From contig NZ_BAABED010000001.1 of the NCBI RefSeq assembly GCF_039539965.1, positions 2,108,001-2,172,000 on the forward strand: a DNA stretch of 64,000 nt, in the 5' to 3' direction. Of the stretch, positions 5,293 through 63,047 are shown piece by piece. Each line of letters begins with the position of its first letter. Positions within the stretch are counted from its first letter, which is position 1. Both the position numbers and the translations under genes were made by a program. The DNA is from Arthrobacter methylotrophus. Lineage in GTDB: Bacteria > Actinomycetota > Actinomycetes > Actinomycetales > Micrococcaceae. The notes below the pieces were generated by a model, which was not told the DNA's origin, searched no databases, and was given only the letters and a program-made list of their open reading frames with translations.

Positions 5293-5462
5293 GGTAGTTC
5301 CTTCGCCTTGGTGGTTGTTTCATTCTTCACGGTCTGGACCGTCTCCGCAGAAGAGCCATGCAGCCTGCCGGCCCGGTATCTAAAATTCTGCCTCGGGCGA
5401 TCCCCCAAGAAGGCCTTCGGCGACGTAGCATCAAGGTAAGCGGCAGCCAGGAGAGTGGCGAA

Positions 5463-7958
5463 ATGTTTGAGAGATTTACGGACCGTGCCCGTCGTGTTGT
5501 TGTGCTTGCCCAGGAAGAGGCACGCATGCTCAACCATAACTACATCGGTACCGAGCACATCCTTTTGGGTCTGATCCAGGAGGGTGAAGGCGTTGCCGCC
5601 AAAGCGCTTGAGTCCCTGAGTATTTCGCTTGAGGGAGTCCGCGAGCAAGTGCAGGAGATCATTGGCCAGGGCAGGCAAGCCCCGTCCGGTCACATCCCCT
5701 TTACCCCGCGCGCCAAGAAAGTGCTTGAGCTCGCGCTCCGGGAGGCCCTGCAGCTCGGCCACAACTACATCGGTACCGAGCACATCCTGCTTGGTCTCAT
5801 CCGGGAGGGCGAAGGCATTGCCGCGCAAGTCCTCGTCAAGCTTGGCGCCGACCTGGGCCGCGTCCGCCAGCAGGTCATCCAGCTGCTTTCCGGTTACGAG
5901 GGCAAGGACACCCCTGGCTCAGTTGCCGGACCGGGGCAAGCGGAGGTGGCCCCCGCTGGTTCGGTGGTGCTGGACCAGTTTGGCCGCAACCTGACCCAGG
6001 CTGCACGCGAAAACAAGCTCGATCCCGTGATCGGCCGCGAGAAGGAGATGGAACGCGTCATGCAGGTCCTTTCCCGCCGCACCAAGAACAACCCGGTGCT
6101 GATCGGTGAGCCCGGCGTCGGCAAGACCGCCGTCGTCGAAGGCCTCGCCCAGGCGATTGTCCGCGGTGACGTCCCGGCGAGCCTGAAGGACAAGCAGCTT
6201 TACACACTCGACTTGGGCTCGGTGGTGGCCGGGTCCCGCTACCGTGGTGATTTCGAGGAGCGGCTGAAGAAGGTCCTGAAGGAAATCCGCACCCGCGGGG
6301 ACATCATCCTCTTCATCGACGAGATCCACACCCTGGTGGGTGCCGGTGCTGCTGAGGGTGCCATCGATGCCGCATCGATCCTCAAGCCGTTGCTGGCCCG
6401 TGGTGAACTCCAGACTATCGGTGCCACCACCCTGGACGAGTACCGCAAGCACATCGAGAAGGATGCCGCTCTGGAGCGCCGCTTCCAGCCGATCCAGGTT
6501 CAGGAACCCTCAGTTGCCCACACCGTGGAGATCCTCAAAGGCCTGCGTGACCGCTACGAAGCGCACCACCGCGTGACCATCACGGATGGAGCGCTAGCGG
6601 CAGCGGCGAGCCTTTCGGAGCGCTACGTCTCGGACCGCTTCCTGCCGGACAAGGCGATCGACCTGATCGACGAGGCCGGTGCACGCCTGCGCATTCGCCG
6701 CATGACCCGTCCACCGGAGCTCAAAGCCATGGATGAGCGCATCGCCGAGGTCAAGATGGAGAAGGAATCGGCCATCGACGCCCAGGACTTCGAGGGTGCC
6801 GCCTCGCTGCGCGCGAAGGAGCAGAATCTTGTGGCCGAGCGCAGGGAAAAAGAGCTCCGATGGAAGTCCGGCGGCATGGGCGGCAATTCCGAGGTCGACG
6901 AGGAGCTGATCGCCGAGGTGTTGGCAAATTCAACCGGTATCCCGGTCTTCAAGCTCACCGAGGCAGAGTCGTCGCGTCTGCTGAAGATGGAAGAAGAACT
7001 GCACAAGCGGGTTGTTGGCCAGGATGAAGCAATTAGCTCAGTCTCGCGGGCCATCCGCCGCACCCGTGCAGGCCTGAAGGATCCCAAGCGGCCGGGTGGC
7101 TCGTTCATCTTCGCAGGGCCCACCGGCGTCGGCAAGACCGAGCTCGCCCGGGCCCTGGCTGAATTCCTTTTCGCCGACGAGGAGGCCCTTATCACGCTGG
7201 ACATGTCCGAGTACTCCGAGAAGCACTCGGTCTCGAGGTTGTTCGGTGCACCTCCGGGCTACGTGGGCTATGACGAGGGTGGCCAGCTGACGGAGAAGGT
7301 CCGCCGTCGTCCGTTCTCCGTGGTGCTGTTCGACGAAGTGGAGAAGGCACACTCCGACCTTTTCAACTCACTCCTGCAGATCCTCGAGGACGGGCGCCTG
7401 ACCGACTCCCATGGCCGGGTGGTGGACTTCAAGAACACGGTGATCATCATGACCACCAACCTGGGCACCCGGGATATTTCCAAGAGCGTGGCCACCGGCT
7501 TCCAGTCCGGCACGGACACCACCACTGGCTATAACCGGATGCGGGCGCGGGTTACCGAAGAGCTCAAGCAGCAATTCCGCCCCGAGTTCCTCAACCGCGT
7601 TGACGACATCATTGTCTTCCCTCAGCTCACGCAGGACGAGATCATCGAGATCGTGGACTTGATGATCGGACGGTTGGAGCAGCATCTGGCCGACAAGAAC
7701 ATGGGCATCGAGCTGACAGCCGCCGCCAAGGTTCTCCTGGCCACCCGCGGCTACAATCCCGCCATGGGTGCCCGGCCGCTCCGCCGCACCATCCAGCGCG
7801 AGATCGAGGACCAGCTCTCCGAGAAGATCCTCTTCGGCGAACTGCACCCGGGCGACATCGTGGTGGTGGACGTGGACGGCGAAGGCGACGACGCCAAGTT
7901 CACCTTCGCGGGCAACGCCAAGCCGCGCATCCCCGACGCGCTGCCCGCAGTGAGTTAA
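5463..7958 (+). CDS. clpC: ATP-dependent Clp protease ATP-binding subunit ClpC
   Basis: An 831-residue class I Hsp100 unfoldase that feeds proteins to the ClpP peptidase in the cytoplasm. From ATG 5463 ([20 protein letters not shown]) it has the duplicated Clp N domain (two [14 protein letters not shown] copies), the first AAA module with Walker A GEPGVGKT and Walker B FIDEIHTL, a UVR coiled segment in the middle region, and the second AAA module with GPTGVGKT, the [11 protein letters not shown]alker B and a C-terminal D2 domain with GARPLRR. Upstream in-frame codons are ignored because GGAGAG is placed correctly before 5463 and the protein begins exactly like known ClpC. Usually a housekeeping gene under heat or stress control; no CtsR gene is seen here. 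Confidence 0.97.
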
Positions 7959-11623: not shown

Positions 11624-12624
11624 CGTTGCCCACCGCGGTCCGTACCGGTTCCGAATAGTTGCCCTGCCTCATCCGGTTCCGCCCCGACGACCGGAACCTC
11701 GGCATGCAGACCCTTCGAGCGGTCGCGGGTAAGCGGTTCGTCGGTCAGGTCTTCCTCCGGTTGGAGCTGTTCCGTCCCCTCGCCGGCCCACGATTGCCCT
11801 TCCTGCGGGTTCCCGTAGACGGGGTCAGCGGGATAGGCGGTGGGTGCCTCCCGGGTGCGCTCATTAGAGGCGGCGAGCCTGCCGCCGTCGTTCACCGGGA
11901 CCTCCGTGGCGTCGAGGTAAGCAGCGTTTGTCACGCTCGGACCCGGGAGGTGGACAGGGGGAGGGGGAACCGAATTTCCGGCTGCGGGGGCGTATACCTC
12001 CGTTGCCCTGTCGCCGGGCCGCGGCGCGGTCACGCCGGTGCTCTGCGTGCGCGCAGGGGCGTCCCCGACGCCGCTGAGGCTCCGACCGAGCCTTCCGGCC
12101 AGGACGCCGGCGCCTGCTGCGAGCAGGAGGAACGCGCCCGGACGCCGCCGGGCGAAGGTCTTCACTTCGTCGACGATCGAGCCCGGCTCCCGGTCGTCCA
12201 ACCAGGTTGCCGCGGATGACGTCCGTTCCGCCGCTTGTCGCACCAGATCTGTGGCAACTCCGGGGTCATTCGCGGCCTCGGCCATGGAACGAAGCTCTTC
12301 CGAAATGGACCGAAGCCCGGCGGCGACCTTTTGCTGCTGTATGCCGGCTTGGTCGCTCAGCTCCAGTTTCGCCTGGCTGAGCAGGTCCTTCGCGTTCGCT
12401 TTCACTTCGGACGCAACGTTGGCCGCTTCGGCCTTTGTGGTGTCCACCACGGACGTCGCAGATTGTTTAGCCTGTTCCGCGGTGTTCCCGGCCTCGTCCT
12501 TGATGGCGTCCAAGGTAGATGTATCAGCGGCCGGATCCGGCATGGTGCCTCGTGTGTCCGGTGCTCGTTGAGTGGTCGGGGAGGAGGCGTAGCTCCCGTC
12601 CGTCGGCCATTGGTTCTCTGTCAT
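11620..12624 (-). CDS. Hypothetical envelope-associated protein, first gene of the DUF3618 operon
   Basis: A 334-residue protein, not a named family to my eye. Residues 40-130 are Ala/Lys/Glu-rich heptad-like helix (AEAANVASEVKANAKDLLSQ and similar). A conserved segment ELRSMAEAANDPGVATDLVR leads to a basic patch and one hydrophobic helix (RPGAFLLLAAGAGVLAGRLG) near residue 165, followed by a disordered, proline- and acid-rich tail of 150 residues. This topology (cytoplasmic helix, membrane anchor, exposed tail) matches its two coupled neighbours. An AAG-N4-CTTAGTAT element lies 61 bases upstream, suggesting the trio shares a stress-type promoter. Confidence 0.82.
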   Translation of the reverse strand: MTENQWPTDGSYASSPTTQRAPDTRGTMPDPAADTSTLDAIKDEAGNTAEQAKQSATSVVDTTKAEAANVASEVKANAKDLLSQAKLELSDQAGIQQQKVAAGLRSISEELRSMAEAANDPGVATDLVRQAAERTSSAATWLDDREPGSIVDEVKTFARRRPGAFLLLAAGAGVLAGRLGRSLSGVGDAPARTQSTGVTAPRPGDRATEVYAPAAGNSVPPPPVHLPGPSVTNAAYLDATEVPVNDGGRLAASNERTREAPTAYPADPVYGNPQEGQSWAGEGTEQLQPEEDLTDEPLTRDRSKGLHAEVPVVGAEPDEAGQLFGTGTDRGGQR

Positions 12625-16621: not shown

Positions 16622-19600
16622 ATGGTGAATCCCTTGCAATGGCCCGTTCTGCGTGAGCTCCTTGAACACGACCCCACCGGCAGACATCATGCTGCCAAGT
16701 CACCCGCGACTGAACGGCTCACCGCCCGGATTGCGACGGCCGACCGGGTTGTCCCGTCGGTCTGCCCGTTCTGTGCGGTGGGCTGTGCGCAGAACGTCTA
16801 CGTCAAAGACGAAAAGGTCATCCAGATCGAGGGCAACCCGGATTCGCCCATCAGCAGGGGACGTCTGTGCCCCAAAGGCTCCGCGTCGCTGCAATTGACC
16901 ACGGGGGAATCACGCGAGAAGCATGTGCTGTATCGCCGTCCCTACGGCACCGACTGGGAACGACTCGATCTCGACACGGCGATGGACATGGTCGCCCGGC
17001 GGGTCGTGGACACCCGGCGTCGGACGTGGGAGTGGGAGAAAGAAGGCGTCCGGACCCGGCGGACACTCGGCATCGCGAGCCTGGGCGGGGCGACGCTGGA
17101 CAATGAGGAGAACTACCTCATCAAGAAGTTGTTCACCTCGCTCGGAATCGTCCAAGTGGAAAATCAGGCCCGGGTGTGCCACAGCTCCACCGTGGCCGGC
17201 CTCGGCACGAGCTTCGGCCGCGGCGGGTCGACGACCTACCTGCAGGACCTCCAGCGGGCGGACTGCATCATTATCCAGGGTTCCAACTTCGCCGAAGCAC
17301 ACCCCGTCGGCTTCCAGTGGGTGATGGAGGCCAAGGAACGCGGGGCGAAGATCATCCACGTTGACCCGAGGTTCTCCCGCACCAGCGCCCTGGCCGACAC
17401 CTTCGTGCCGATCCGGGCCGGCACCGACATCGCGTTCCTTGGCGGCCTGATCAACTGGGTCCTCACCCATGAGGCCTATTTCCGCGAGTACGTCGTCAAC
17501 TACACCAATGCAGCCACCATCCTGCGGGACGATTTCCGCGACACCGAAGACCTTGACGGCCTGTTTTCCGGATTCAATCCCGAGGGACCCTCCTACGATC
17601 CTGAGAGTTGGCAATACGAGGGAGCCAACGTTGCCGCTTCCTCCGGGGAGCGCGAGTCGCAGGCGCACGAGGAGGGAAGCACGCTGGGGGAGTCCGGTCA
17701 CGCCCACTCCCATGGTTCCGGCGGCCCGTCGCTCCGCGGCCATTGGCACCGGGACGAAACGCTGCAGGACCCGCGGTGCGTGTTCCAGACGCTGCGTCGC
17801 CACTACGCCAGGTACACCCCGGAGATGGTCGAACAAATCTGCGGCGTGCCGCAGGAGCTGTTCAACGAGGTAGCGGAAGCAATCACCGCGAACTCCGGCC
17901 GCGAGCGCACCACCGCGTTCGCCTACGCCGTCGGATGGACCCAGCACACCACCGGCGTGCAATACATCCGGGCCGCCTCGGTCCTGCAACTGCTGCTCGG
18001 GAACATCGGCCGGCCCGGCGGCGGGATCATGGCCCTCCGCGGCCACGCGAGCATCCAAGGCTCCAGCGACATTCCGACGCTTTTCGACCTCTTGCCCGGA
18101 TACCTGCCGATGCCGCACGCCGAGCAGCATACCGACCTGGACGGATACATCGCGGCCGACGCGGCGGAGCGCGGCTTCTGGGCAAACATGCGTGCCTACA
18201 CGGTCAGCCTGCTCAAGGCCTGGTGGGGAGACGCCGCCACTCCGGAGAACGATTTCTGCTTCGACTACCTGCCCCGGATCACGGGGAGCCACAGCACCTA
18301 TGACACTGTCGCGGCCCAGCTTGACGGAAGCTGCAAGGGATATTTCCTCATGGGCGAGAATCCCGCCGTCGGCTCGGCCAACGCACATTTGCAACGCGCG
18401 GGCATGGCCGAGCTCGAGTGGCTCGTGGTGCGCGACTTCTCCTTGATTGAAAGCGCTACGTGGTGGAAAGACGGCCCGGAGATCGCCACGGGACAGATGC
18501 GGACGGAGGACCTTGCCACCGAGGTGTTCTTCTTCCCGGCTGCCGCCCACACCGAAAAGGCCGGCAGCTTTACCAACACCAACCGGCTGCTCCAGTGGCG
18601 CGAGCAGGCCATCGAGCCCGAGGCGGACCGCCGCAGCGATCTGTGGTTCATGTGGCACCTCGGGAATCGAATCCGCGGCCTCCTTGCGGGATCGAGCGAC
18701 CCGGCCGACCAGCCGGTGCTGGATCTGACCTGGGATTATCCGACCGTCGGAAACCAGGCGGAGCCGGACTCGGACGCCGTCTTCGCTGAGATCAACGGCA
18801 CGAAGGCCGACGGTACGCCCCTTTCGGCGTACACCGAGTTGAAAGACGACGGATCGACGTCGTGCGGCTGCTGGATCTACTGCGGTTGCCGGGCCGACGG
18901 CATCAACCAGGCTGCGCGCCGCAAGCCCCACACCGAGCAGGGCATCTCGAGTCGCGAATGGGGTTGGGCCTGGCCGGCAAACCGCCGGGAACTCTACAAC
19001 CGGGCCTCCGCGGACCCGGAGGGGCGCCCGTGGAGCGAGCGGAAGAAGCTCATCTGGTGGGACGAGGAAGCCGGGAAATGGACCGGCGACGACGTACCGG
19101 ACTTCGAGCCGACGAAGCCGCCGTCCTATCGCCCCGATAAGGATGCGATGGGCACGGAGGCGATCTCCGGCGTCGACCCTTTCATCATGCAGGCAGACGG
19201 GAAAGGCTGGCTCTACACCCCCTCGGGTCTAGTCGACGGACCAATGCCGGCCCATTACGAACCGCAAGAGTCCCCGTTCGAGAACATGCTGTATGGCCAA
19301 CAGCGGAACCCGGTGCGCAAGCTCATGCCCCGGGAAGGAAACCGGTACCACCCCAGCGGGCGGGACCCTGGGGCGGAGGTATTCCCTTATGTGCTGACCA
19401 CCTACCGGCTCACCGAGCACTTCACCGCAGGGGCCATGACCCGCTGGCTGCCGTACCTGGCGGAACTCCAGCCGGAGTCCTTCTGCGAAGTCTCGCCCGA
19501 GTTGGCCGAAGCACGTGGCCTGACGCACAAGGGCTGGGCAACGCTCATCTCGGCCCGGGGCGCCATCGAAGCCCGTGTCTTGGTAACGCACCGTATGAAG

Positions 19601-19867
19601 CCGCTCATGGTACAGGGGCGTGTTGTCCACCAGATTGGAATGCCTTACCACTGGGGGCCAAACGGCCTGTCAAAGGGAGACGCCATGAACGAGCTCTCTT
19701 CCATCGCTATGGATCCGAACGTCCACATCCAGGAGGTCAAGGCGCTGACCGTAGACATACGTCCCGGGAGGAGGCCCCGGGGGCAAGCCCTGTTGTCTCT
19801 GGTCAAGGATTACCGCTTGCGGGCCGCCATTGACGAGAACACCGGAGTTGAAGGAGCGAAGGCATGA
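16622..19867 (+). CDS. fdh: Formate dehydrogenase catalytic subunit (molybdopterin, Cys type)
   Basis: A 1081-residue molybdopterin oxidoreductase oxidising formate to CO2. The N-terminal [4Fe-4S] cysteines are C48, C51, C55 and C83. The active-site position equivalent to selenocysteine in FdnG is Cys186 (NQARVCHSSTVAGLG), followed by the conserved histidine and the FGRG motif. EAHPVGF and the C-terminal dinucleotide-binding domain (EHFTAGAMTRWLPYLAELQP) complete the family pattern. There is no twin-arginine leader, so it is predicted to be cytoplasmic, unlike E. coli FdnG. Two insertions stand out: a His-rich stretch (HAHSHG ... HWH) near residue 360 and a Cys-rich CGCWIYCGC near 750. GGAGG precedes ATG 16622. 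It heads a ten-gene operon. Confidence 0.94.
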   Translation: MVNPLQWPVLRELLEHDPTGRHHAAKSPATERLTARIATADRVVPSVCPFCAVGCAQNVYVKDEKVIQIEGNPDSPISRGRLCPKGSASLQLTTGESREKHVLYRRPYGTDWERLDLDTAMDMVARRVVDTRRRTWEWEKEGVRTRRTLGIASLGGATLDNEENYLIKKLFTSLGIVQVENQARVCHSSTVAGLGTSFGRGGSTTYLQDLQRADCIIIQGSNFAEAHPVGFQWVMEAKERGAKIIHVDPRFSRTSALADTFVPIRAGTDIAFLGGLINWVLTHEAYFREYVVNYTNAATILRDDFRDTEDLDGLFSGFNPEGPSYDPESWQYEGANVAASSGERESQAHEEGSTLGESGHAHSHGSGGPSLRGHWHRDETLQDPRCVFQTLRRHYARYTPEMVEQICGVPQELFNEVAEAITANSGRERTTAFAYAVGWTQHTTGVQYIRAASVLQLLLGNIGRPGGGIMALRGHASIQGSSDIPTLFDLLPGYLPMPHAEQHTDLDGYIAADAAERGFWANMRAYTVSLLKAWWGDAATPENDFCFDYLPRITGSHSTYDTVAAQLDGSCKGYFLMGENPAVGSANAHLQRAGMAELEWLVVRDFSLIESATWWKDGPEIATGQMRTEDLATEVFFFPAAAHTEKAGSFTNTNRLLQWREQAIEPEADRRSDLWFMWHLGNRIRGLLAGSSDPADQPVLDLTWDYPTVGNQAEPDSDAVFAEINGTKADGTPLSAYTELKDDGSTSCGCWIYCGCRADGINQAARRKPHTEQGISSREWGWAWPANRRELYNRASADPEGRPWSERKKLIWWDEEAGKWTGDDVPDFEPTKPPSYRPDKDAMGTEAISGVDPFIMQADGKGWLYTPSGLVDGPMPAHYEPQESPFENMLYGQQRNPVRKLMPREGNRYHPSGRDPGAEVFPYVLTTYRLTEHFTAGAMTRWLPYLAELQPESFCEVSPELAEARGLTHKGWATLISARGAIEARVLVTHRMKPLMVQGRVVHQIGMPYHWGPNGLSKGDAMNELSSIAMDPNVHIQEVKALTVDIRPGRRPRGQALLSLVKDYRLRAAIDENTGVEGAKA

Positions 19868-20682
19868 GTGTCACGCAATTGGGAATGCCGTCGATCGGAG
19901 TGCCGCGCAAGGGTTTCTTCACCGACACGAGCCTGTGCATCGGCTGCAAAGCGTGCGAGGTGGCGTGCAAGGAGTGGAACTCCGTGCCGGCGGACACCGC
20001 GCTCGAACTGAGCGGTGAATCGTTCGACAATACCTCCGCCTTGGGCGCGAATTCATGGCGGCACGTCGCGTTCATCGAGCAAAAAGTCCCCGCCGCCGAT
20101 CCTTCCGCGAACGACGGCGTCAAGTGGCTGATGTCCTCGGACGTCTGCAAGCACTGCACCCACGCCGCGTGCCTGGACGTTTGCCCCACCGGTGCGCTGT
20201 TCCGCACCGAGCACGGCACCGTCGTCGTACAACAGGACATCTGCAACGGGTGCGGCTATTGCGTTTCCGCGTGCCCTTACGGAGTGATCGACCAGCGCCC
20301 GGAGGATGGCCGGGTATTCAAATGCACGATGTGCTACGACCGGCTCGGTGCCGGCGAGGAGCCCGCCTGCGCGAAGGCCTGCCCCACCAAGTCCATCCAG
20401 TACGGCGAACTCGACGAGCTACGCGAACGGGCGGATGCCCGCGTGGCCGAGTTGCACGAACGCGGCGAAGAAGGCGCCAGGCTGTACGGGCACAACCCGG
20501 AAGACGGGGTCGGCGGGGACGGCGCGTTCTTCCTGCTGCTGGACGAGCCCGAGACGTACGGCCTGCCCCCGGACCCAGTGGTGACCACGAAGGACCTGCC
20601 GGTGATGTGGAAGCGCGCCGCGGGCGCCGCAGCCGGACTTCTGCTCGGCGCCGTCGCCGTTTTCTGGGGAGCCAAAAATTGA
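19864..20682 (+). CDS. Formate dehydrogenase iron-sulfur subunit (four-cluster ferredoxin)
   Basis: A 272-residue electron-transfer subunit with sixteen cysteines in four groups: CIGCKACEVAC, CKHCTHAACLDVC, CNGCGYCVSAC and CTMC...CAKAC, the layout of FdnH/FdhB and DmsB proteins. It carries electrons from the catalytic subunit toward the membrane. The C-terminus has one hydrophobic segment (AAGAAAGLLLGAVAVFWGAK) that would anchor it to the inner face of the membrane, as in FdnH but with the opposite context given the lack of a Tat signal. Overlaps the catalytic gene (ATGA) and the next gene (TTGA). Confidence 0.93.
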   Translation: MSVTQLGMPSIGVPRKGFFTDTSLCIGCKACEVACKEWNSVPADTALELSGESFDNTSALGANSWRHVAFIEQKVPAADPSANDGVKWLMSSDVCKHCTHAACLDVCPTGALFRTEHGTVVVQQDICNGCGYCVSACPYGVIDQRPEDGRVFKCTMCYDRLGAGEEPACAKACPTKSIQYGELDELRERADARVAELHERGEEGARLYGHNPEDGVGGDGAFFLLLDEPETYGLPPDPVVTTKDLPVMWKRAAGAAAGLLLGAVAVFWGAKN

Positions 20683-21611
20683 GCCCGCGCCGGAAGCATC
20701 CCGAGGAGTTCACTTCCTACTACGGCCGGCCGATTCTCAAGAAGCCGACATGGAGCGCGGTAGACATCGCGGGCTACATCTTTGCCGGTGGATTGGCAGG
20801 GGCGAGCTCCATGCTGGCGGCCGGAGCACAGCACAGCGGCAGGCCGTCGCTCGAGCGGCGCTCCAAGGTCTTGGCCCTGACCGCGATTTCAGCCTCTGCG
20901 GTGGCCCTCGTGCATGACCTTGGGCGCCCGGAACGGTTCCTCAATATGCTGCGCATGGCCAAGCCGACGTCGCCGATGAGTATGGGTTCCTGGATCCTTT
21001 CCATTTATGGCCCGCTGGCCGGGGCGAGTGCCGCATCCAACGTACTTGGCATCCTGCCGCGTGCCGGCCGTGCCTGCGGAGTCGGCGCAGCCGTGGCCGG
21101 GGCTGCCGTTGCCACCTACACGGGCGTGCTGCTCGCCGATACCGCAGTGCCCACGTGGCACGACGCCCACGAAGTGCTGCCGTTCGTCTTCGCCGGGTCC
21201 GCGGCGGCCTCGGCCGGGGGCATCGGCGCCGCCCTTGCTCCGCTCGCCGAGGCCGCTCCCGCACGCCGCATGGCGGTGGGCGGGGCAGTGGTGGAAACGC
21301 TCATGAGCTTCAAGATGGAGCGCAGCGGCCAGCTATCCACCGAGACCCTGCACCAGGGCCGCGCCGGGACGCTCTTGCGGCTCTCGAAGGCTTTCACCGT
21401 CGGAGGGGCCGTCGCACTCGCCTTGGGCGGACGCCAGTCGCGCCTCCTCAGCACGATGGGTGGCCTTTCCGTCGCCGCCGGCTCGGCGCTGCTGCGGTTC
21501 GGAGTGTTTGAAGCCGGCGTCGCCTCGACGCTCGATCCCAAGTACGTCGTCGTGCCGCAACGCCAACGCGTCGACGCTGCCGCGCAGAAGACGGATTCGG
21601 TGGGTGTGTAG
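20679..21611 (+). CDS. NrfD/PsrC-type membrane subunit
   Basis: About 310 residues from TTG 20679, in a TTGA overlap with the ferredoxin gene. An apparent longer frame starting at 20055 is only read-through of an overlapping frame. It begins with a conserved soluble segment EEFTSYYGRPILKKPTWSAV and has about eight hydrophobic helices (for example DIAGYIFAGGLAGASSMLAA). HDLGRPERFLNMLR is the hallmark NrfD loop. Family members exchange electrons with quinones or move protons without binding a redox cofactor. Here it would link the iron-sulfur subunit to the membrane, and because the Mrp-type genes follow directly it is the likely interface to the ion-translocating module. Confidence 0.86.
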   Translation: MSPRRKHPEEFTSYYGRPILKKPTWSAVDIAGYIFAGGLAGASSMLAAGAQHSGRPSLERRSKVLALTAISASAVALVHDLGRPERFLNMLRMAKPTSPMSMGSWILSIYGPLAGASAASNVLGILPRAGRACGVGAAVAGAAVATYTGVLLADTAVPTWHDAHEVLPFVFAGSAAASAGGIGAALAPLAEAAPARRMAVGGAVVETLMSFKMERSGQLSTETLHQGRAGTLLRLSKAFTVGGAVALALGGRQSRLLSTMGGLSVAAGSALLRFGVFEAGVASTLDPKYVVVPQRQRVDAAAQKTDSVGV

Positions 21612-21612
21612 C

Positions 21613-22146
21613 GTGAAGGCGAACCGGGAGCGAACCGGACCCGTACGCAGGTTTTTCGGTCTCCCCACCGCACGCGGAGTCTCCGGAGCGCTCGGGGAGC
21701 TTGCTTTATGGTGGCTGGCGGGAACGCTCTCGTGGCTCGTCACGGTAAGCACTGTGACGGTCCCGGAAACGGTGACGGCCGTGTCGACTGCGCTGCTCGG
21801 CGCAATGCTTGCCCGTATGGCCAGGCGGGCCATGGGGTTCCAGGCCGCAGCGCAGGGTATCTGGCTACGCTGGGCTGCCTTGGTCCCGCTCGCGGCCGTG
21901 ACCGACACGGTCCGCCTGGCAGGCTGGCTTACGGGCCCGCAGGAGGAAACCCTGAGCGAGCAGCCGATGCCGGGAACCCGGCAACCCCGGGGAAGAGGAT
22001 GGCGGGCAGGCGCCATGATCGCACTGTCGGCAACCCCCGGATCCGTGGTGTTCTCTTCCGACCCGGTCATGAACCGGATCCGTGTTCACGTCCTGGCCTC
22101 CGGGTGGCCGGACCTTGAACGGCACATCGCGTCAGGCACCGGTTAA
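21613..22146 (+). CDS. mrpE: Mrp-type antiporter subunit E-like protein
   Basis: 177 residues from GTG 21613, one base after the preceding stop. Two or three hydrophobic segments near the N-terminus (LALWWLAGTLSWLVTVSTVT, TAVSTALLGAMLARMARRAM) and a soluble C-terminal part ending with HVLASGWPDLERHIASGTG, consistent with the MnhE/MrpE family (PF01899), although the sequence is divergent. First of seven Mrp-type genes. In Mrp and Mbh complexes this subunit packs at the edge of the membrane arm. The identification rests partly on its position before clear MrpF and MrpG proteins. Confidence 0.72.
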   Translation: MKANRERTGPVRRFFGLPTARGVSGALGELALWWLAGTLSWLVTVSTVTVPETVTAVSTALLGAMLARMARRAMGFQAAAQGIWLRWAALVPLAAVTDTVRLAGWLTGPQEETLSEQPMPGTRQPRGRGWRAGAMIALSATPGSVVFSSDPVMNRIRVHVLASGWPDLERHIASGTG

Positions 22147-22155
22147 GGGCCATGA

Positions 22156-22446
22156 ATGGATGTCACAATCGTGTGGTCGGCCGCGACCTTGGCGCTACTG
22201 CTCTTCGGGGTCGCGCCTAGCCTCTTCCTGGCTGCTCGCGGAAGCAACGTCCAGCGACTGGTGGGACTCCAGCTCCTTACCGGCTCCGGCGTCATGGTGC
22301 TCATCGGCCTCTCGATCATCGCCGGTCAGTCCTCGTACCTGATCGTCCCCCTTGCGCTCGCCGCCCTTGCCGCTACTGGAACGCTTGTGTACACCAGGCT
22401 CTTGAAACCGGGCATTGACGGACAACCAACAGTGGAGGAAGAATGA
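22156..22446 (+). CDS. mrpF: Mrp-type antiporter subunit F-like protein
   Basis: A 96-residue membrane protein with three hydrophobic helices: near the start (IVWSAATLALLLFGVAPSLF), then RLVGLQLLTGSGVMVLIGLS, then YLIVPLALAALAATGTLVYT. Length and three-helix topology fit MrpF/MnhF (PF04066), which in E-F-G order forms the small-subunit end of the complex. AAGGG precedes ATG 22156 and the stop overlaps the next ATG. Confidence 0.82.
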   Translation: MDVTIVWSAATLALLLFGVAPSLFLAARGSNVQRLVGLQLLTGSGVMVLIGLSIIAGQSSYLIVPLALAALAATGTLVYTRLLKPGIDGQPTVEEE

Positions 22447-22748
22447 CTGCCGCCTTCTTTGAAGCGATTTTCGCAGGACTGGGCGTCCTGGCAGCCGCTT
22501 TCGGCTGTGTCGGCGCGGCAATGGCGCGCGAGCCCCTCGCGAGGCTGCACTTCCTGGCTCCCGTGACGACGCTCGCCGTCCCGCTTTTCTCGATCGCCGC
22601 GGTGGGCTACTTCGGCTTCTCCCTGGGAAGCGCCACCATCATCCTCATTGCCCTGGTAGTCGCTTTCAGCGGGCCCGCAGTGACGATCGCGGTCGGAAGG
22701 ACGCTCGCCGACGAGCGGGGACTGGACGTAGGGAGGTCTCCCGAATGA
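22443..22748 (+). CDS. mrpG: Mrp-type antiporter subunit G-like protein
   Basis: A 101-residue protein with three hydrophobic helices and the MrpG/PhaG pattern: a helix, the short loop MAREPLARLHFLAPVTTLAV resembling the family hallmark (RLHA-type) loop, then two more helices and GPAVTIAVGRTLADERGLDV at the end. It completes the E-F-G set, starts in an ATGA overlap with MrpF and overlaps the DUF4040 gene at its end. Confidence 0.86.
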   Translation: MTAAFFEAIFAGLGVLAAAFGCVGAAMAREPLARLHFLAPVTTLAVPLFSIAAVGYFGFSLGSATIILIALVVAFSGPAVTIAVGRTLADERGLDVGRSPE

Positions 22749-23035
22749 ACGAGGGAATCCTCAGTAATGTCTTGATTGCCGTCAGCCTCACCCTCGTGCT
22801 CGCCGGGGCCGCGGCCGTCGTATTCACGCGCCATCCTTCAAAGCAAGCCGTGGTCCTGTCGTACTACGGGCTGCTGCTCACCATCTTGTTTGTCGTCCTC
22901 CAAGCACCCGATGTGGCCCTCAGCCAAGTGGCGATAGGGACAGCGGTGGTTCCCTTGATCGTGGTCCTCTCGATCCGGAAGGTCTCGGCCATCCGCGCGG
23001 ACCACCACCTGGAGGAGGGAGAGGAGGGTACATGA
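22745..23035 (+). CDS. DUF4040 protein, equivalent of the MrpA C-terminal (MbhD-like) region
   Basis: A 96-residue protein with three hydrophobic helices and the conserved core YGLLLTILFVVLQAPDVALS followed by QVAIGTAVVPLIVVLSIRKV. This is the DUF4040 / MbhD signature that in full Mrp antiporters sits near the end of the large MrpA protein. Here it is a separate gene, as in membrane-bound hydrogenases, and no full-length MrpA (NuoL-like) gene is present in the operon. Overlaps both neighbours by four bases. Confidence 0.9.
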   Translation: MNEGILSNVLIAVSLTLVLAGAAAVVFTRHPSKQAVVLSYYGLLLTILFVVLQAPDVALSQVAIGTAVVPLIVVLSIRKVSAIRADHHLEEGEEGT

Positions 23036-23820
23036 CACGGCGGATCCGCCTCATCGTTCTCGGCGTCGGCATCGCTGCGTTCTCGGCGGCGATGTTGCTC
23101 GCGTTCACCGGCATGCCCCGATTCGGCGGAGACGTCCACGCTTATCGCGACGCGGCCGTCGCAGCAAGCTACGGACATGACACCGCCAACGCCGTCTCGA
23201 GCATCAACTTCGACCAACGGGGTTTCGACACTTTCGGGGAGGAGACCATCCTCTTCTGCGCCGTCGTCGGCGTCGCGGCGCTGCTGAGGCCAGTCCACCG
23301 CGAACGACGGCGGGAGGTCAGCGATGCGGGCCACGTGCTGGAGTCGACGGGCCTCCTTGTCTACGTACTTTTTCCTCTGACAGTCGTGCTTGCCGTGAAC
23401 GTGGTCGCCCACGGAGCCGTCACCCCGGGCGGCGGATTCCAGGGCGGCGTCATCCTCTCAACCGGAATCCACTTGCTCTATGTCGGCGGCCGCTACTCCC
23501 TCCTGCGCAAGCTCCGGCCCCTGGGGTGGTTCCAGCAAGGCGAGGCGCTCGGCGTCGTCCTGTTCGGCGCGCTCGGAATCGCCGGCGCGGCACTCGGCTC
23601 GGCCCTGTTCGCGAACGTCATCCCGCAAGGCCAGCTCAGCGATTTCATCTCGGCGGGAACGGTACCCCTCTTCAACGTCGCCGTGGGGATGACCGTCTGC
23701 AGCAGCGTCGTCGTCCTGCTGGCCAGCTTCCTGGACCAGGCGCTCGCGATCCGAGCCGAGCGGGGGAACGGTTCCGGGCCCGACCCGCGCTCCGGACCAG
23801 AGGAGGGCACAGCCTCGTGA
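23032..23820 (+). CDS. mrpB: MbhE/MnhB-domain Mrp-type membrane protein
   Basis: A 262-residue protein that appears to combine two subunits. Residues 1-90 (with FTGMPRFGGDVHAY and NFDQRGFDTFGEETILFCAV) correspond to the MbhE-type end of MrpA. The rest is an MnhB domain (PF04039) with VVAHGAVTPGGGFQGGVILS and four more helices. In archaeal Mbh these are two adjacent genes, MbhE and MbhF, so this is a fusion. The hydrophilic tail after residue 240 is Arg/Gly/Glu-rich. It is translationally coupled on both sides. Confidence 0.88.
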   Translation: MTRRIRLIVLGVGIAAFSAAMLLAFTGMPRFGGDVHAYRDAAVAASYGHDTANAVSSINFDQRGFDTFGEETILFCAVVGVAALLRPVHRERRREVSDAGHVLESTGLLVYVLFPLTVVLAVNVVAHGAVTPGGGFQGGVILSTGIHLLYVGGRYSLLRKLRPLGWFQQGEALGVVLFGALGIAGAALGSALFANVIPQGQLSDFISAGTVPLFNVAVGMTVCSSVVVLLASFLDQALAIRAERGNGSGPDPRSGPEEGTAS

Positions 23821-24164
23821 ACCACTACGCATACTTTGTATCGGTGGGCGTCATGCTCCTTGGCGTGGCGGGGATCGCCACGAGCCGCAATCTGGTCCAC
23901 ACCGTTGTTTGCCTTTCCGTCGCCCAATCGGGCACGTATGTGCTGCTCATCGCCGTCGGCTTCCAATACGGCGGAGTGGCGCCTATTTTCGGCGGCCAGG
24001 TCGGCAGTCGCACGCCGGTGGTCGATCCGGTGGTCCAAGCACTGACGCTGACGGACATTGTGGTCTCGGCCGCGGTCACCTCGATGCTGCTCGCGCTCGT
24101 GATTCAGATCGCCAAGCGCCATCGGGCGATCGATCCTGACCGACTCGGTCGACTGGAGGGCTGA
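23817..24164 (+). CDS. mrpC: Mrp-type antiporter subunit C (NuoK-like)
   Basis: 115 residues from GTG 23817 (GTGA overlap). Three helices with the MrpC/NuoK pattern: [40 protein letters not shown] and [20 protein letters not shown]. The last contains the conserved DPxxQALxLTDIVV motif of MrpC. The homologous NuoK of complex I is part of the proton path. A longer frame starting upstream is shadow. Confidence 0.92.
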
Positions 24165-24168
24165 GCGG

Positions 24169-26004
24169 GTGCTGCCCGGGACCGTCGCCGCATCGCTCAT
24201 GCCCACGGTCGTGATCGTCCTTATCCTAGCCGCGTGCGGCCTGATGTCCCTGGGTCCCCACCTGCCCCGGCGCTTCGCGGATGTCGTCTCCTTGGCCGCC
24301 GCCGTGGCCGCGTTGACGCTCGAGGCGCTCATGGTGGTGCCGGCCGGCAGCGCCCGCCTCGTCTACTGGATGGCCGCGTGGCAGCCCGAGGGCGGGCGCG
24401 CCGTCGGAATCGCCCTGGTCGGAGACCAGTTCAGCATCGGGATCGCCCTCTTGGCGGCAGGGCTCATGATCGCTTCCCTCGTCTTCTCGTGGCGGTACTT
24501 CGAGTCGGACACCGTCCATTTTCACGGACTAATGGTGCCCTTCCTGGCCGGCATGACAGGGTTCGCGTTTGCCGGTGATGTCTTCACCATGTTCGTGTTC
24601 TTCGAGCTGATGGGGGTCGCGGCCTACGCCTTGACCGGGCTCAAGAGCGAAGATCCCTCCGCTGTACACGGCGCCATCAACTTCGGCATCGTGAACTCGC
24701 TGGCCGCCTACTTTTCGCTTATGGGTGTCGGCCTCCTCTATGCCCGTACCGGAAGCCTGAATCTTGCAGCCATCTCCCAAGAGCTGCTTGGCGACCGGAG
24801 CCCGCTGATTGCGATCGCGTTTGTCCTGTTGTGCGCAGGGTTCCTCGTCAAGGCCGCGATCGTGCCGTTCCATTTCTGGCTCGACGATGCCCACGCAGTC
24901 GCTCCCTCGCCCGTATGCGTGCTGTTCTCGGGAGTGATGGTCGAATTGGGACTCTACGGCGTGGCCCGGATCTACTGGGAAGGCTTCAGCGGCACCCCGA
25001 TCGCATCCGCGGCACAGGTCCTTTTCGCCGTGCTGGGCATCCTGACCGCCGTCGTCGGCAGCACCATGTGCTTCCTCCAAAGGCACGTCAAGAGACTGCT
25101 CGCCTACTCGACCATCGCCCACATGGGTGTCTTCCTCGTTGTCCTCGGACTCGCTTCCGCGGATGCGTTGGGAGGAGTCGCGGTCTATGTCCTCGGCCAC
25201 GCCGCAGTCAAAGGCTCCTTGTTCCTGTTGAGCGGACTCACGCTGAACAGGTACGGCAGCGTCGACGAATACACCCTCCAGGGGCACGGGAAGGACTCCA
25301 AAGTTCTGGGGATCACCTTCCTGGTGGCCGGCGCCGCACTGGCTGGAGCGCCGCCGTTCGCCGTCGGGCTCGGCAAGGGCATCGCCGAACACGCGTCATC
25401 AAGCGCAGGACAGTTCGGGGTCACGGTGCTCATGATCGGAGTCTCGGCCGTGACGGCCGGCGCCGTCTTGCGCGTTGGCGCCCGGATATTCCTAGGCATC
25501 GGCGGACGCCCAGCCGGGGTCGAGGCAGAGGGGATGAGCGGTGACGAGGAACGCATCGAAGTGCCGATCGGACAGCGGCATATTCCGCCGTCGATGGGGG
25601 CGCCGCCCTTGGGACTGCTGGCGTGCGCGCTTGTCTTGGGGGTCCTTCCTTCGGTCGGCGGTGCCGCCCAACAGGCTGCCGCCCGGTTCATGGACCGGGC
25701 AGGCTACGTGACGGCAGTGCTTGACATCCCCGGCCCGTATCTGTTGCACGTCGCCGCGGGCGCGGTCTGGGAGCCGACGAACATCGCGCTGGGATTACTC
25801 ACGACGGCGCTCGCCGTCGGAATTGCCGGCGCGGCGCTTCACGGCCGGCGTCTGCCTTCCGCGCTGCGGCGCCCCTCGGAAGCGGCCCAGCCGACCTTGC
25901 GAATCTTCCGGCGCTTGCACTCCGGGCGCGTCGGCGACTATGTCGTGTGGCTGCTTGTGGGCCTGGCGGCGGGGTGGGCACTGCTGATCGGCCAAGGCGC
26001 GTGA
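24169..26004 (+). CDS. mrpD: Mrp-type antiporter subunit D (proton-conducting, NuoN/NuoM-like)
   Basis: A 611-residue protein from GTG 24169 with about fourteen hydrophobic helices. It carries the conserved proton-transporter core: the [20 protein letters not shown] glutamate on helix 5, the [20 protein letters not shown] lysine helix and the [20 protein letters not shown] helix found in NuoL/M/N and MrpD. It is longer than a typical MrpD (about 500) because of a C-terminal extension with an extra helix. It is the only large channel-type subunit in the operon and the last gene. It would translocate H+ or Na+ driven by formate oxidation if the complex model is right. Confidence 0.93.
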
Positions 26005-30050: not shown

Positions 30051-31565
30051 CTACAGGTCTTCTTCGTCCCCAAGGTGGACGGCTGCCGGACCCTCTTCGC
30101 CGTGCCCGATCCGCCGGTACACGGCGGGATTGCTCCGGCGGAGGCGGAGGCCCCAGACGATTCCCACCAAGCCGGGCACGATGATCGCGGCCGGCAGGAT
30201 GAACGTCAGCACATTGCTCTCGTTTTGCCCCAGCAGGACGTTGAAGTTGACCACGATCAGAACGAAAATCACGGCAAGGAGGAGGAAACCCAAGGCAGGG
30301 GCGATTGCCCGGGTCCAGATTCCGGCGTCATGCCTGTTCTTGCGGAAAAACCCAATGACCGCCAGCGAAACAACGGTCATCAGGAGGACAAGCCCCATGG
30401 CGCCGTCATTCGTCAGCCACGTGAACATGGTCAGGACCGGGTAGAGGTCACCCAGCGTTGATCCGGTTCCCGCGATGGCGAAGGCCACCGTGACCACGAC
30501 GGCGATAACCGTCTGGGCGATCGAGCCGGCGTAGGGTGCGCCGCTGTGCCGCCGTACTGCACCCAGCCTTCGGGGAAGGACCTGCTCCCGGCCAAGCGAG
30601 AAGAAGTAGCGGGCCGCGGCGTTGTGGAAGCTGACGAGGGCTGCAAAGAGGCTGGTGACGAAGAGCAGGCGGGCCAGGTCGGCGAGAAGGACGCCGGCGT
30701 GGTCGCTGAGGAAGCCGAACATCAGGTCCGGTCCTTGTTTTGCGGAAGCATCGACCACCGCGGACGGTCCTGTGCCAACGGCCATGGCCCAGGAGGAAAC
30801 AGCGTAGAACAGGGCGATGATGGCGACGGCCGTGTATGTGGCCCGGGCGACAGTGTGCTTTGGGTCCTTGCTTTCCTCACTGTAGATCGCGGCCGACTCG
30901 AATCCCATGAACGCCGCGATACCGAAGGACAAGACGGCCCCGACGCCTGGTACAAACAGGCTCTGCGGAGTGAGCGGCGCTCCGCTGACTCCCTCCGGTG
31001 CCACGACGAAGGAGACGACGTCGTAGACGATGACTACGAGGAACTCCAGACCGACGAGCACCCCGAGGACCTTTGCCGACAGGTCCACCCGGTTCACGCC
31101 GAGGAATGCGACGACCGCGATGCACAGTAGCACCGGAATCCACCAAGGGACTGTCACGCCGAAGCGTTCGTTGATCAGGCTCGAGACGGTAAAGCCGAAG
31201 AGCCCGTAGATGCCGACTTGCATCAGGTTGTAGGCCATCAGCGCCACCATGGAAACCCCGACGCCGACGGGCCGGGAGATGCCCTGCGCCACGTAGGAAT
31301 AAAAAGCGCCGGCATTCACGACGTACCTGCTCATCGCCGCGTATCCGACCGCGAAAACCGCGAGGGTTCCGCCGAGCAGGAGGAAGGACAGCGGTACGCC
31401 GGTGACCCCGGTGACGGCGAACGTCGTCGTGACTCCGCCAGCGAGGACGGTGAGCGGTGCCGATGCTGCGATGATCATGAAGGTCACCGCCGGGACGCCG
31501 AGACGGCGTCGATGGTGATGCGGGTGACCCACCTCAGTGGTCTCTTTCCCGGTTGTTAAACTCAT
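30051..31565 (-). CDS. APC family amino acid/amine permease
   Basis: A 504-residue transporter with about twelve hydrophobic helices. The first carries the APC-superfamily pattern [20 protein letters not shown], and helix 6 lies in [20 protein letters not shown] (GFE motif). The tail is hydrophilic and acidic. It starts in an ATGA overlap with the copper amine oxidase stop, so the two are made together. It is the likely importer of the primary amine that the oxidase consumes, although the substrate is inferred from the operon rather than from sequence. Confidence 0.9.
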
Positions 31566-33511
31566 TTCTGGGCCTCCATGTGGCAGTGGCCGCCTTTAGA
31601 GGGCTTCGACGCGGGGACGTCGAGGACGGGGCTCCGATCGAAGAAACCCTCAGGGCGCAATTTGAATCCCACCGTGTCGACCGGCATGATCGGCCAGTCC
31701 TCGGGGCGGGGAAAGTGGGTCAGCCCGAAGGTATGCCACACGACGATGTCTTGTCCGTCGATATCCCGGTCATCGGAAATGTAGGACGGCAAACCGGCTC
31801 CTCCGGAGTGCTGGTTGACGAAGTCGCCGCTGGGGTAGCGTTCTTTCTCGTCGTAGCGGGTCACCCACAGGTCCTTCGTGGCGAATGCTGCACGCCGGGC
31901 GATGGATGATTCGGGATCAGCCAGCAGCATGGGATGCCCTTGTCCGTGGAGTTTGTACCCCACGGGGTCGCCCAAGCGGTTGAGTGATTCGGGATTCGAG
32001 ATGACCCAGGCGCGCCCGGCTGCCATGTCTGACTCCCGAACAGCCTCGGATTCGCGCTTGAGTACAGTCCGACGGCGCGCGAAGGCGTTGCCGCGTTCGT
32101 TGCCTTCTCCCATGGGTACGCGAACGGCGTCCTCTTCCTCCACCCGGTTCGTCAAGCCGTCGATGGCGAAGTCCAGGCGGGCACTGAAAAGGTGCTGGTG
32201 GAAGGGAGCCCCAAGCCCAGGGGCAAGCTCCGAGGCGTAAGGGTAGCCCTTTCCGGGATGGGCGCTGGTGAAGACGACGCCCGTGGCCTTGGCTTCGAAC
32301 TCGATGGTGCCGTCGAGGTAGAGATACCAGTAGAAGCCGTAATCGTAGTTGCCGATAGTGGTGAAGAAACTGATGACGAGCCTGCGGTTCCTGCGCGTGT
32401 AGTTCACGCCGCTCCAGAGGTCGCTGTGCTTGGCGAGGATGCTCCAATCCTCCTCGTGCATGCAGATTCCATTGCGTATCTCGCGCGGCCGGCCGAACGC
32501 ATCGCTGACCACCGGGCTGAGATAGGTGATTTCGCCCAGGCAGTCGCAACCGAGTTCCAGGGAGTTTGCGTACTGGCCCACGAGGTACTCGCCGGTGTCA
32601 AAGTAGTTCTGCCAGGAGCGCACAGGAGAGGGGTCGCCGTACGGCACTACCATTTCGGCGATGGAGGCCCGCTTGAGGATACTGCGGCGGCGATCGCCGT
32701 CGTCGAACGCTATATTGTGGAGAACTACGCCTTCCCGGACATCGAAACCGATGTCCAGGCTCCACTTTTCCCATTCGACGTGGTTGCCGTTTTGGACGGT
32801 AAAGCTGGGCCCTTCCGGCTGGGTGATGTGGATCGGCTTCTGGGTGGTGCGCAGCGGTCCGGTCAGCTCCGGGTCCGTGAAGTTGCCGTGCTCGGCAGGG
32901 ACCGGAACGATCCCGAAATCCAGGACCTGATCAACGGTCTTGCTGACGACGTCGACGTAGGCAACCAGCCCGTCCACCGGGTGGGCCCAGGCGCTGTCCT
33001 CTGGGAAGTCCTGAACGAAAGCCAGACCGCGGAGGATGCGGCGGCCCTTCTCTTCGGGGTATTCGAAGACCCCGGCGGAGAGGGGAGCAACCCTCACTTT
33101 GCTGACATCGAGATTGCGGTCAGCCAGGGCCTTGAGCCATCGTGCATCCTGGGCGAGGATCTCCTCCACCACTTCGAATTCTTCTTCGATGACCGGAAGT
33201 TCGCCTGTCACGGACGTGTCCGGCTCTACTTTTGTGACGACTTCCTTGTGCGTCACGGAAACGACCACGTCCTGTGCCGCTCCGGATGAAACGTCGTGCA
33301 GGAAAGCTCTGAATCTGCGGTCCACGGCTACCGCTTCTCGCGAGGGGTCAAGCAGTCCCAGGTACGCCACGCGGGTGGTGTCGTCGAAAAGCCCGGCCTC
33401 GGCAAGGATTGCCCTGACCGCCGCGATGTCCTCGGCGCTGGTCATTGCGTAAGGAGACAGCCCGGCATCCGCGGCCGTGTCGGTGATTTCTGGAGAGGAA
33501 GTTGTGCTCAT
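31562..33511 (-). CDS. Copper-containing primary-amine oxidase (phenylethylamine oxidase type)
   Basis: A 649-residue enzyme oxidising primary amines to aldehydes with release of H2O2 and ammonia. The self-processed cofactor tyrosine is Tyr389 in the NYDY consensus ([17 protein letters not shown]), the catalytic base aspartate lies in [12 protein letters not shown], and copper histidines lie in [10 protein letters not shown] and [16 protein letters not shown]. Long stretches match what I recall of the Arthrobacter globiformis phenylethylamine oxidase (for example [20 protein letters not shown]), so an aromatic monoamine is the likely substrate. No signal peptide, so cytoplasmic. First gene of the operon, divergent from the TetR gene. 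Confidence 0.96.
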
Positions 33512-59958: not shown

Positions 59959-60372
59959 GTGAGCGCGCAGAACCATGCGGGGGCATTCGAGGCTGGCGAG
60001 GCATTTCGGCGTCAGAGCGATGAGGAAGTACGATATCGGCACGATCACGCGGTGGCAAACGGTGAGAAGCGCATTCTCGCCCGGACCGTTGAGGGCGGTC
60101 TATACAGCTATCACTCCGATGAAATCACGTTGGCTAAACAGGGGTTTTCAGTCGCAGTAGCATCCACTTGGCAAATGCTCGTCTTCGCAGGAGCGATGGC
60201 TGCCGTGTCCATGTTCGGCCTCGTCCTAACAGTCTTCGCGGCAGTGTCCGACGGCATCTGGGTCAGGCTGCTCCTGCCTGGCTTCAGCGGACTCTTCACC
60301 TGGCTTCTCTTCCACTGGGGGGATGCAGAACGTTCGGGCGAGAAATATGCGCAAGGAACGTGGCGTTCCTGA
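59959..60372 (+). CDS. Hypothetical membrane protein with two C-terminal helices
   Basis: 137 residues from GTG 59959 with AAAGGAAG upstream. A charged N-terminal half (AFRRQSDEEVRYRHDHAVAN, GLYSYHSDEITLAKQGF) is followed by two hydrophobic helices (STWQMLVFAGAMAAVSMFGL and VRLLLPGFSGLFTWLLFHWG) and a short tail. No family is recognised. It is near the subtilase/ATPase locus but on the opposite strand. Confidence 0.55.
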   Translation: MSAQNHAGAFEAGEAFRRQSDEEVRYRHDHAVANGEKRILARTVEGGLYSYHSDEITLAKQGFSVAVASTWQMLVFAGAMAAVSMFGLVLTVFAAVSDGIWVRLLLPGFSGLFTWLLFHWGDAERSGEKYAQGTWRS

Positions 60373-60678
60373 GCCATTGCCGTACAAAGCCCCAGTGTCG
60401 ATCAATCTTCGAGGGGTCTCGCACTTCTAATCGCGCTTCGGTGCCCGCTTGGAACACGTCCGGCGCAGGGCAATCTCACTGATTGGCTGACCCATAGCCG
60501 GCGAGCAGCCATGGTCCACTCTCTCCAACTGTCAGACGACATTTCGCGATCACAGAACCGCGCCATTCAGCGCTGTGATTCGGAGATTGAATATTCGCTC
60601 GGGTCCGGGGTCCGAGCCCACGATTTGCGCCACCCCGAGCCATGCTGGAACAGAGAGCAGGGCACCGTTTCCCTAGGC
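60373..60678. other. Intergenic stretch, no gene seen
   Basis: About 300 bases between convergent genes without a supportable frame or a clear terminator. Confidence 0.4.
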
Positions 60679-63021: not shown

Positions 63022-63047
63022 GAGTTCTGCCCGCGCTTTCAGTTCTG

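Follow-up and report, generated by a model that had tools for sequence, protein, structure and literature searches.

We analysed a 64,000-nucleotide stretch of the genome of the soil actinobacterium Arthrobacter methylotrophus (contig NZ_BAABED010000001.1, positions 2,108,001 to 2,172,000; hereafter the window), in which ten open reading frames on one strand, spanning positions 16622-26004, encode a formate dehydrogenase (FDH) followed by an Mrp-type ion-translocating module. Six of the nine gene junctions are 4-base overlaps, and at the remaining three the genes stand 1, 9 and 4 bases apart. Families were assigned by Pfam and NCBIfam searches of the window proteins, which bore out the gene identities, positions and common direction given in a preliminary description of this DNA. 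The first three genes, on the plus strand like all the others, encode a Mo-bisPGD formate dehydrogenase catalytic subunit of 1081 aa (fdhA/fqoA, 16622-19867; NF041513), a 4Fe-4S electron-transfer subunit (fdhB/fqoB, 19864-20682; Fer4_11, with the FDH-beta model TIGR01582 below its cut-off) and a PsrC/NrfD-type membrane subunit with a TTG start (nrfD/fqoC, 20679-21611). They are followed by an mrpE-like gene at the MbhA position (GTG start, 21613-22146), mrpF (MbhB, 22156-22446; PF04066), mrpG (MbhC, 22443-22748; PF03334), mbhD, corresponding to the C-terminal part of MrpA (DUF4040, 22745-23035; PF13244, 60.5 bits), an mbhE-mnhB fusion (23032-23820; PF04039 with 71 bits and PF20501 with 26.3 bits, just under the cut-off of 27), mrpC (MbhG, GTG start, 23817-24164; PF00420) and the gene for an MrpD/MbhH-like antiporter subunit (GTG start, 24169-26004; PF00361), which consists of an antiporter part (residues 1 to ~518) and a tail (~519-611). 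The window MrpE has no Pfam match of its own and was identified only via an orthologue of 32% identity (L104:9925-10386), which matches PF01899 MNHE at 1.5e-9.

As the preliminary description had stated, the operon holds no hydrogenase or NuoB/C/D/H/I-like gene: none of the ten genes matched a Pfam family of hydrogenase catalytic subunits or of NuoB/C/D/H/I, and no hydrogenase-like large subunit, MBS redox subunit or NuoH-like MbhM was found among them by Pfam or NCBIfam. An assembly artefact was ruled out by the presence of the same operon in G373/L001 and G359. The ten genes are probably two modules on one transcript.

Judged by sequence, the first three genes are FqoABC, a known, uncharacterised actinobacterial formate:quinone oxidoreductase. 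FdhA scores 2021.5 bits against NF041513 (formate_DH_Act, cut-off 1400), which places it in the actinobacterial FDH family, and the third subunit has the PsrC fold of the NrfD-like membrane subunit of FqoABC. Cys186 of FdhA aligns with the X (selenocysteine, Sec) of 1h0h_A, in agreement with the Cys-type catalytic subunit described before. Across 97 FdhA loci, among them L098, which is the copy in the window, and duplicate genomes (for example L129/L001 and L132/L005), residue 186 is an in-frame TGA in 54 and Cys in 43. The TGA (probably Sec) and Cys forms alternate among these loci; within the window's genus, the full-length close FdhA clade (at least 86%) carries Cys and the 63-65% clade TGA. 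None of these FdhA proteins shows the twin-arginine pattern RRx[FILM][ILM] within its first 45 aligned residues, the distant loci aligning only from residue 5-9. Unlike FDH-N, FdhA has no Tat signal pattern, as claimed earlier, and no 19-residue stretch of its N-terminus exceeds the helix threshold of the hydropathy analysis. This pattern search and the hydropathy indicate that FdhA likely lies on the cytoplasmic side. FdhB has a single hydrophobic C-terminal segment (~252-270, by hydropathy), and the NrfD subunit probably reduces quinone.

The remaining seven genes are, by homology, an MBH/MBS-type Mrp module without hydrogenase or the N-terminal part of MrpA (MBH, archaeal membrane-bound hydrogenase). 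Their order E-F-G-MbhD-(MbhE+B)-C-D, which we take to be the MbhA-H order of MBH, was borne out: MbhA-B-C-D-E-F-G-H is present, with E and F fused and MbhA/MrpE recognised via its orthologue only. Among solved chains, the antiporter subunit matches MbhH best (6cfw_H, 155.8 bits, vs 133 for MBS and 121 for Mrp D), and both MrpC (59.1 bits for MBS chain 6u8y_G, 53.9 for MBH chain 6cfw_G, 41.4 for Mrp) and MbhD (29.8 bits for 6u8y_D of MBS, 25.0 for 6cfw_D of MBH, 24.0 for Mrp) match MBS best. By Pfam, the MrpA N-terminal antiporter unit is not in the operon, where only the MbhD and MbhE parts are present. The reported lack of a full MrpA thus holds for the operon and not for the genome, which carries a separate canonical Mrp operon at ~4.844-4.850 Mb of contig C1 (G000) with a full-length MrpA of 1016 aa. 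The window Mrp proteins share 23-34% identity with their matches in that operon.

The last gene had been read as mrpD, and its product is indeed an antiporter subunit, though with 611 aa it exceeds MrpD or MbhH in length. Predicted folds were obtained for two subunits. The AlphaFold2 model of the 611-aa subunit (pLDDT 90.9, pTM 0.93) places three further helices in the tail, at 536-557, 564-583 and 588-610, the middle one strongly amphipathic. Structural matches to Mrp D and MbhH chains end at ~518-520 of the model and those to NuoL chains at 590-594, the last helix being barely covered by any compared structure, and a profile alignment with the genome's own MrpA extends to residue 562. A profile of the tail (residues 500-611, ten sequences) searched against the PDB at E up to 10 gave two matches only, a designed protein (E 0.58) and, weakly, MbhI of MBH (6cfw_I; E 1.2, 12.7 bits), the latter worth noting because MbhI is a small subunit of MBH itself; an HxGxxxDY motif is common to MbhI and the tail. 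These alignments and the model are suggestive of a NuoL/MrpA/MbhI-like tail on this "MrpD".

Residues of the ion paths were counted in 44 distinct loci of the class, an earlier count of 48 loci having held four genes twice. In the proton path of the antiporter subunit, E146 and K228 occur in 44 of 44 loci and K403 in 41, with His in its place in L160, L162 and L169. We take E146, K228 and K403 to be the Glu of transmembrane helix 5, the Lys of helix 7 and the Lys of helix 12 of MrpD, with helices assigned by homology. For the sodium path of Mrp and MBH, which includes MbhD Glu69 and MbhG Asp37, the site assignment was taken from an excerpt of PMC7419157. The sodium-site Glu of MbhD in MBH/MBS is Gln61 here, and Gln in 43 of the 44 class loci. 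MrpC carries Gln37 and Tyr41 in all 44, at places where MBH/MBS have Asp/Glu and His/Asn (Asp37 and His41 in MbhG itself). In MrpF, Gln33 and Gln39 take the place of Asp in 6cfw_B and 6u8y_B, by an alignment to the solved chains that is weak (E 0.05-2.1); for the Mrp sodium-path residues MrpF Asp29/Asp35 and MrpA Glu706, the window has Gln33 and Gln39, by the same weak MrpF alignment, and Gly65. Over 17 matches, the two MrpF places hold mostly Arg/His/Gln/Ser and Asn/Gln/Glu, with one Asp in all. Acids are kept elsewhere: MbhE Asp66 and Glu70 occur in 44 of 44 class loci, as does MrpC Asp80, a family-specific acid not seen in the solved chains.

Eleven loci outside the class gave a partly similar picture, with the MbhD Gln in seven of the nine that have a reading, and E146 and K228 in ten of 11; the sole exception, L186, is a 3.9 kb contig that aligns badly. 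MrpC Gln37 is present in seven of ten of these loci and replaced by His in three (L189-L191), His344 is replaced in six, and K403 is Arg in L185. Because the acids of the sodium path are lost in the window, mostly to amides, sodium coupling by the known route appears unlikely there, and the Na+ pumping that the preliminary description had allowed beside that of H+ is disfavoured for this route.

The occurrence of FDH and the Mrp module was compared across genomes. Both were found in 37 of 199 Streptomyces genomes, Mrp alone in 24, FDH alone in 18 and neither in 120 (odds ratio 10.3, Fisher p 1.9e-11, kinship ignored), and seven of the 37 have the two no more than 13.4 kb apart. This set (g30) was recognised as Streptomyces by G591, whose match coordinates equal those of G460, the Streptomyces anandii genome that holds L020. 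Six of these seven linked FDH copies lack TGA; the seventh is partial and does not reach residue 186. In the window's genus (150 genomes), FDH was found in 35 and the module in four, all with FDH (p 0.0026). In a class-wide set of 296 genomes (thresholds E 1e-60 for the module and E 1e-200 for FDH), 15 have the module, 82 FDH and six both; FDH is thus present in 6/15 Mrp-positive vs 76/281 Mrp-negative genomes, which is not significant (p 0.21). When the FDH holders are split at 69% identity, the module occurs in 5/26 close vs 1/56 distant ones (p 0.011, at a cut chosen after seeing the data; p 0.007 if two partial 69% matches are counted as distant). The named genomes searched that hold near FdhA relatives number 49; they come from 50 of the 80 nearest FdhA loci and are a different sampling from the class set. 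The module (own-type MrpD at E 1e-50) is present in 32 of the 49, and the FDH core without the arm is common, occurring in the other 17. Two MrpD matches per genome were seen in Streptomyces G591, G631 and G627, the second of G627 being only 35% identical.

Seven of the 80 nearest FdhA loci have the module within their 10 kb flank (L001, L032, L045, L046, L056, L072 and L070); the module of L070 is cut by the locus end, and 22 of the 80 loci are shortened by contig ends. At L044, in Streptomyces cavernae, pieces of the module only are present: parts of MrpE, MrpF and MrpD (L044:21066-22239) lie ~6 kb behind NrfD, no own-type MrpD is found in the genome at E 1e-50, and the locus looks like a decayed module. 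Antiporter-like matches near FDH in L017, L024 and L029 share 25-27% identity and are probably of another type; in Streptosporangium pseudovulgare (L017:19080-22387) two such genes (27%) stand in tandem ~4 kb behind FDH-NrfD. A hemerythrin-domain gene adjoins the Mrp module in two FDH-linked loci (L104:10493-11056, by a sub-cut-off Pfam match, and L107:7252-7830).

The ten-gene order, which the preliminary description had led one to expect in relatives, is not conserved: the two sets of genes are separated in most of them, and the order occurs in 3/150 genomes of the genus (G000, G373, G359) and at one of the 80 nearest FdhA loci (L001). This rarity, like the class-wide lack of significance, would fit a chance neighbourhood in which two independent operons fused once in the window's lineage. 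Against that stand the seven of 37 Streptomyces genomes with linkage within 14 kb, where ~0.1 would be expected (arithmetic for a 9 Mb genome), and the repeated appearance of linkage on trees in several orientations. In a quick-search MrpD tree of 47 rows, the linked label, borne by 13 rows that include the G345 remnant described below and G058, where only FdhB stands beside the module, needs seven changes, at least five of them forced by supported branches, and linkage needs six on the FdhA tree (50 rows). The two modules share an operon in the window, L001 and G359, are divergent in G086, L046 and L072 and convergent in L032, L056, L070 and G036, and in L045 the Mrp module lies upstream on the same strand. 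Recurrent linkage thus largely refutes a chance neighbourhood, which we regard as very improbable. A restriction of linkage to Cys-type FDH was also ruled out, as L045 and G086 are linked yet carry TGA.

In G036, a 16 kb stretch (L105, G036:C70:96001-116000) holds FdhA-B-NrfD, an ABC importer, FdhD, MoaE and the Mrp module; the importer, with its SBP_bac_11 protein, would serve molybdate uptake. In G054, the sister of G036, the module is present and an FDH of the window's family is not. Paenarthrobacter DKR-5 and two Sinomonas strains, relatives of the window's genome, hold both modules on different contigs, and the ten-gene operon of the window appears to be these two modules joined locally. 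Together, our data support a functional pairing of FDH and Mrp beyond chance, clearest in Streptomyces.

The two modules are separable in both directions. Nine of the 15 module-bearing class genomes have no FDH of the window's family at E 1e-100, and the same nine have no relative of the window NrfD at E 1e-5; likewise, 24 of the 61 Mrp-bearing Streptomyces genomes lack this FDH. In a phylum search, 12 of 14 matches fell outside the class, and six of the 12 have FDH, always on another contig; no FDH gene was seen in 11 stretches around outside-class modules, some of which are short contigs. Stand-alone module operons with unrelated neighbours occur in several genomes, and the genes adjoining five FDH-less modules (ten proteins) include no shared redox partner and one pyridine-nucleotide-disulphide oxidoreductase. 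In G345, of the window's genus, all seven Mrp genes are intact and open, and a remnant of the fdhA start and nrfD scraps stands directly before mrpE (L121, G345:C1:474001-494000, 11905-12580), with the upstream region also left. The dN/dS of the Mrp genes is 0.143 on the G345 branch, compared with 0.152 for G359 and 0.139 for the window. Read from these sequences, G345 is a natural FDH deletion in which the Mrp genes are kept under unchanged purifying selection.

Solitary operons and conserved proton-path residues would suit a stand-alone Na+(K+)/H+ Mrp antiporter for pH or salt balance, located near FDH as part of the same accessory gene set. Such a role is unlikely in view of the missing MrpA N-terminal antiporter unit, the replacement of most sodium-path acids, the canonical Mrp operon already in the genome and the strong co-occurrence with FDH in Streptomyces.

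The preliminary description had proposed one complex that couples formate oxidation via NrfD to H+ or Na+ pumping. Spelled out as a physical respiratory complex, NrfD would bind the MbhI-like tail of the antiporter subunit, and the transfer of electrons from formate to menaquinone would power the pumping of H+ (or Na+) by the Mrp arm, much as in complex I with NrfD replacing NuoH. The energy would be enough, at ~0.35 V for two electrons, and this proposal draws on the single overlapping operon in three genomes of the genus, on the apparent fusion to the antiporter subunit of an element like MbhH's neighbour in MBH, and on the co-occurrence and repeated linkage. It is opposed by the persistence of the arm without this FDH, without this NrfD (the nine genomes above) and after the deletion of the linked FDH in G345, which speaks against an obligate complex, by the frequency of the FDH core without the arm, and by the residues of NrfD, none of which varies convincingly with whether the arm is present (lowest p 7e-4 in 454 tests); for FdhB, positions 146 and 151 gave p 1.7e-4 in 223 tests with kinship ignored. 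Of the coupling proposed before, the functional link stands and the obligate FDH-NrfD-Mrp complex is not supported; a single complex of this kind is doubtful. Contact between the arm and NrfD is plausible by analogy, because in MBH, as an excerpt of PMC7419157 describes, the arm carries its redox unit on the MbhH side, and the MbhI-like tail would face the same side. We regard as rather unlikely a version in which a molybdoenzyme-NrfD complex drives, by contact with the MbhH-I fusion, a proton-only MBH-type arm with its sodium-site acids changed to amides.

The explanation we consider best, and to which we assign an even chance, is that FDH faces the cytoplasm and has in the MBH-like, proton-translocating arm a facultative partner, not a fixed part of one machine. 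FqoABC would oxidise formate at a Mo/Cys site, probably in the cytoplasm, and pass the electrons via iron-sulfur clusters to its PsrC-type subunit for menaquinone reduction. The seven-gene MBH/MBS-type membrane arm, with its one antiporter-like subunit, would most likely move protons, its sodium coupling site being disabled or rebuilt. The arm would be kept with FDH when formate serves as fuel and could also be inherited alone; since it appears to be a facultative partner heritable on its own, its coupling to FDH would be mainly via the shared proton gradient, or by a non-obligatory docking.

Several points weigh against this facultative proton-moving partner. The Streptomyces test takes no account of kinship, and the class-wide association falls short of significance. 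Elsewhere in its genome, G345 holds a different FDH that bears the TGA and comes with an NrfD of its own, and the arm may serve that one; the linked FDH genes may have been deleted at any point along the branch on which dN/dS was taken. The sodium-site Glu of MbhD is kept in L107, an FDH-linked locus, and the conserved MrpC D80 together with MbhE D66/E70 makes a remodelled sodium path possible.

According to an excerpt of PMC7419157, the ion-moving part of complex I and of membrane-bound hydrogenases probably goes back to Mrp-type arms, and the redox-driven versions covered there use a hydrogenase-derived redox unit. The recurrent pairing of such an arm with an NrfD-type FDH in aerobic actinobacteria makes it possible to study how an ion-pumping arm comes to be recruited by a redox enzyme, and whether protons are pumped by an arm that lacks the sodium site; G345, where FDH was lost and the arm kept, offers a natural control. 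If a contact-driven formate pump proved true, two unrelated traditions would be combined in it, and this complex-I-like machine would contain no hydrogenase-derived module.

Elsewhere in the window, scans for tRNA and for Rfam families at the gathering threshold were empty, and two promoter-like and eight terminator-like matches were found, about the shuffle level (1.0 and 5.9). A ClpC/ClpB-type AAA+ unfoldase gene lies at 5358-7958 on the plus strand (Clp_N, AAA_2, ClpB_D2-small), an amino-acid permease-like gene overlaps a primary-amine oxidase gene (PRK11504, 862.6 bits) at 30051-33511 on the minus strand, and G+C falls to 0.569 at the window end (60001-64000), the site of a gene for a 780-aa subtilase-family protein.

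A literature search on FDH, Mrp, NrfD and actinobacteria, covering open-access PMC papers, found no paper recognisably on this pairing in actinobacteria. The parts are known; as far as such searches show, there is no description of their combination, of the fused tail or of the replacement of acids by amides. FqoABC was tentatively named a formate:quinone oxidoreductase, with 59 actinobacterial species (Calisto and Pereira 2021, PMC8076601, in excerpt). Its FdnGH-like FdhA and FdhB with an eight-helix NrfD-like subunit fit the genes at 16622-21611; it differs in that seven Mrp-type genes follow in the window operon, and the words "Mrp" and "antiporter" are absent from the main text of that paper. 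The FDH of Rhodococcus equi, according to parts of PMC13332983, has the same three-subunit core with an NrfD anchor (AlphaFold3 trimer, ipTM 0.88), no SignalP signal, a DeepTMHMM signal and possible residues of a degenerate Tat motif; unlike the window FDH, it has an in-frame TGA and adjoins selenocysteine genes, and neither "Mrp" nor "antiporter" occurs in the main text. FDH-N (FdnGHI) has the cytochrome b anchor FdnI where the window has NrfD. Canonical Mrp/Mnh antiporters (6z16, 7qru, 7d3u) share homologous E, F, G, B, C and D subunits and the conserved proton residues, whereas the window operon lacks their MrpA N-terminal unit. The archaeal MBH (6cfw) and MBS (6u8y) share the gene order, are closest among the solved chains in MrpC, MbhD and the antiporter subunit, and provide the weak MbhI likeness of the tail; in contrast to them, the window operon lacks MbhM as well as any redox subunit of hydrogenase or MBS, its MbhE and MnhB are fused, its sodium-site acids are replaced and its antiporter subunit is extended. 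Formate hydrogenlyase of E. coli (PMC9474812) and the proposed FDH-Ehr clusters (PMC6349859), both as described in excerpts of these papers, likewise join FDH to antiporter-like membrane subunits. Different from these systems, which use a hydrogenase or hydrogenase-related module, the window operon has NrfD as its sole membrane redox subunit.

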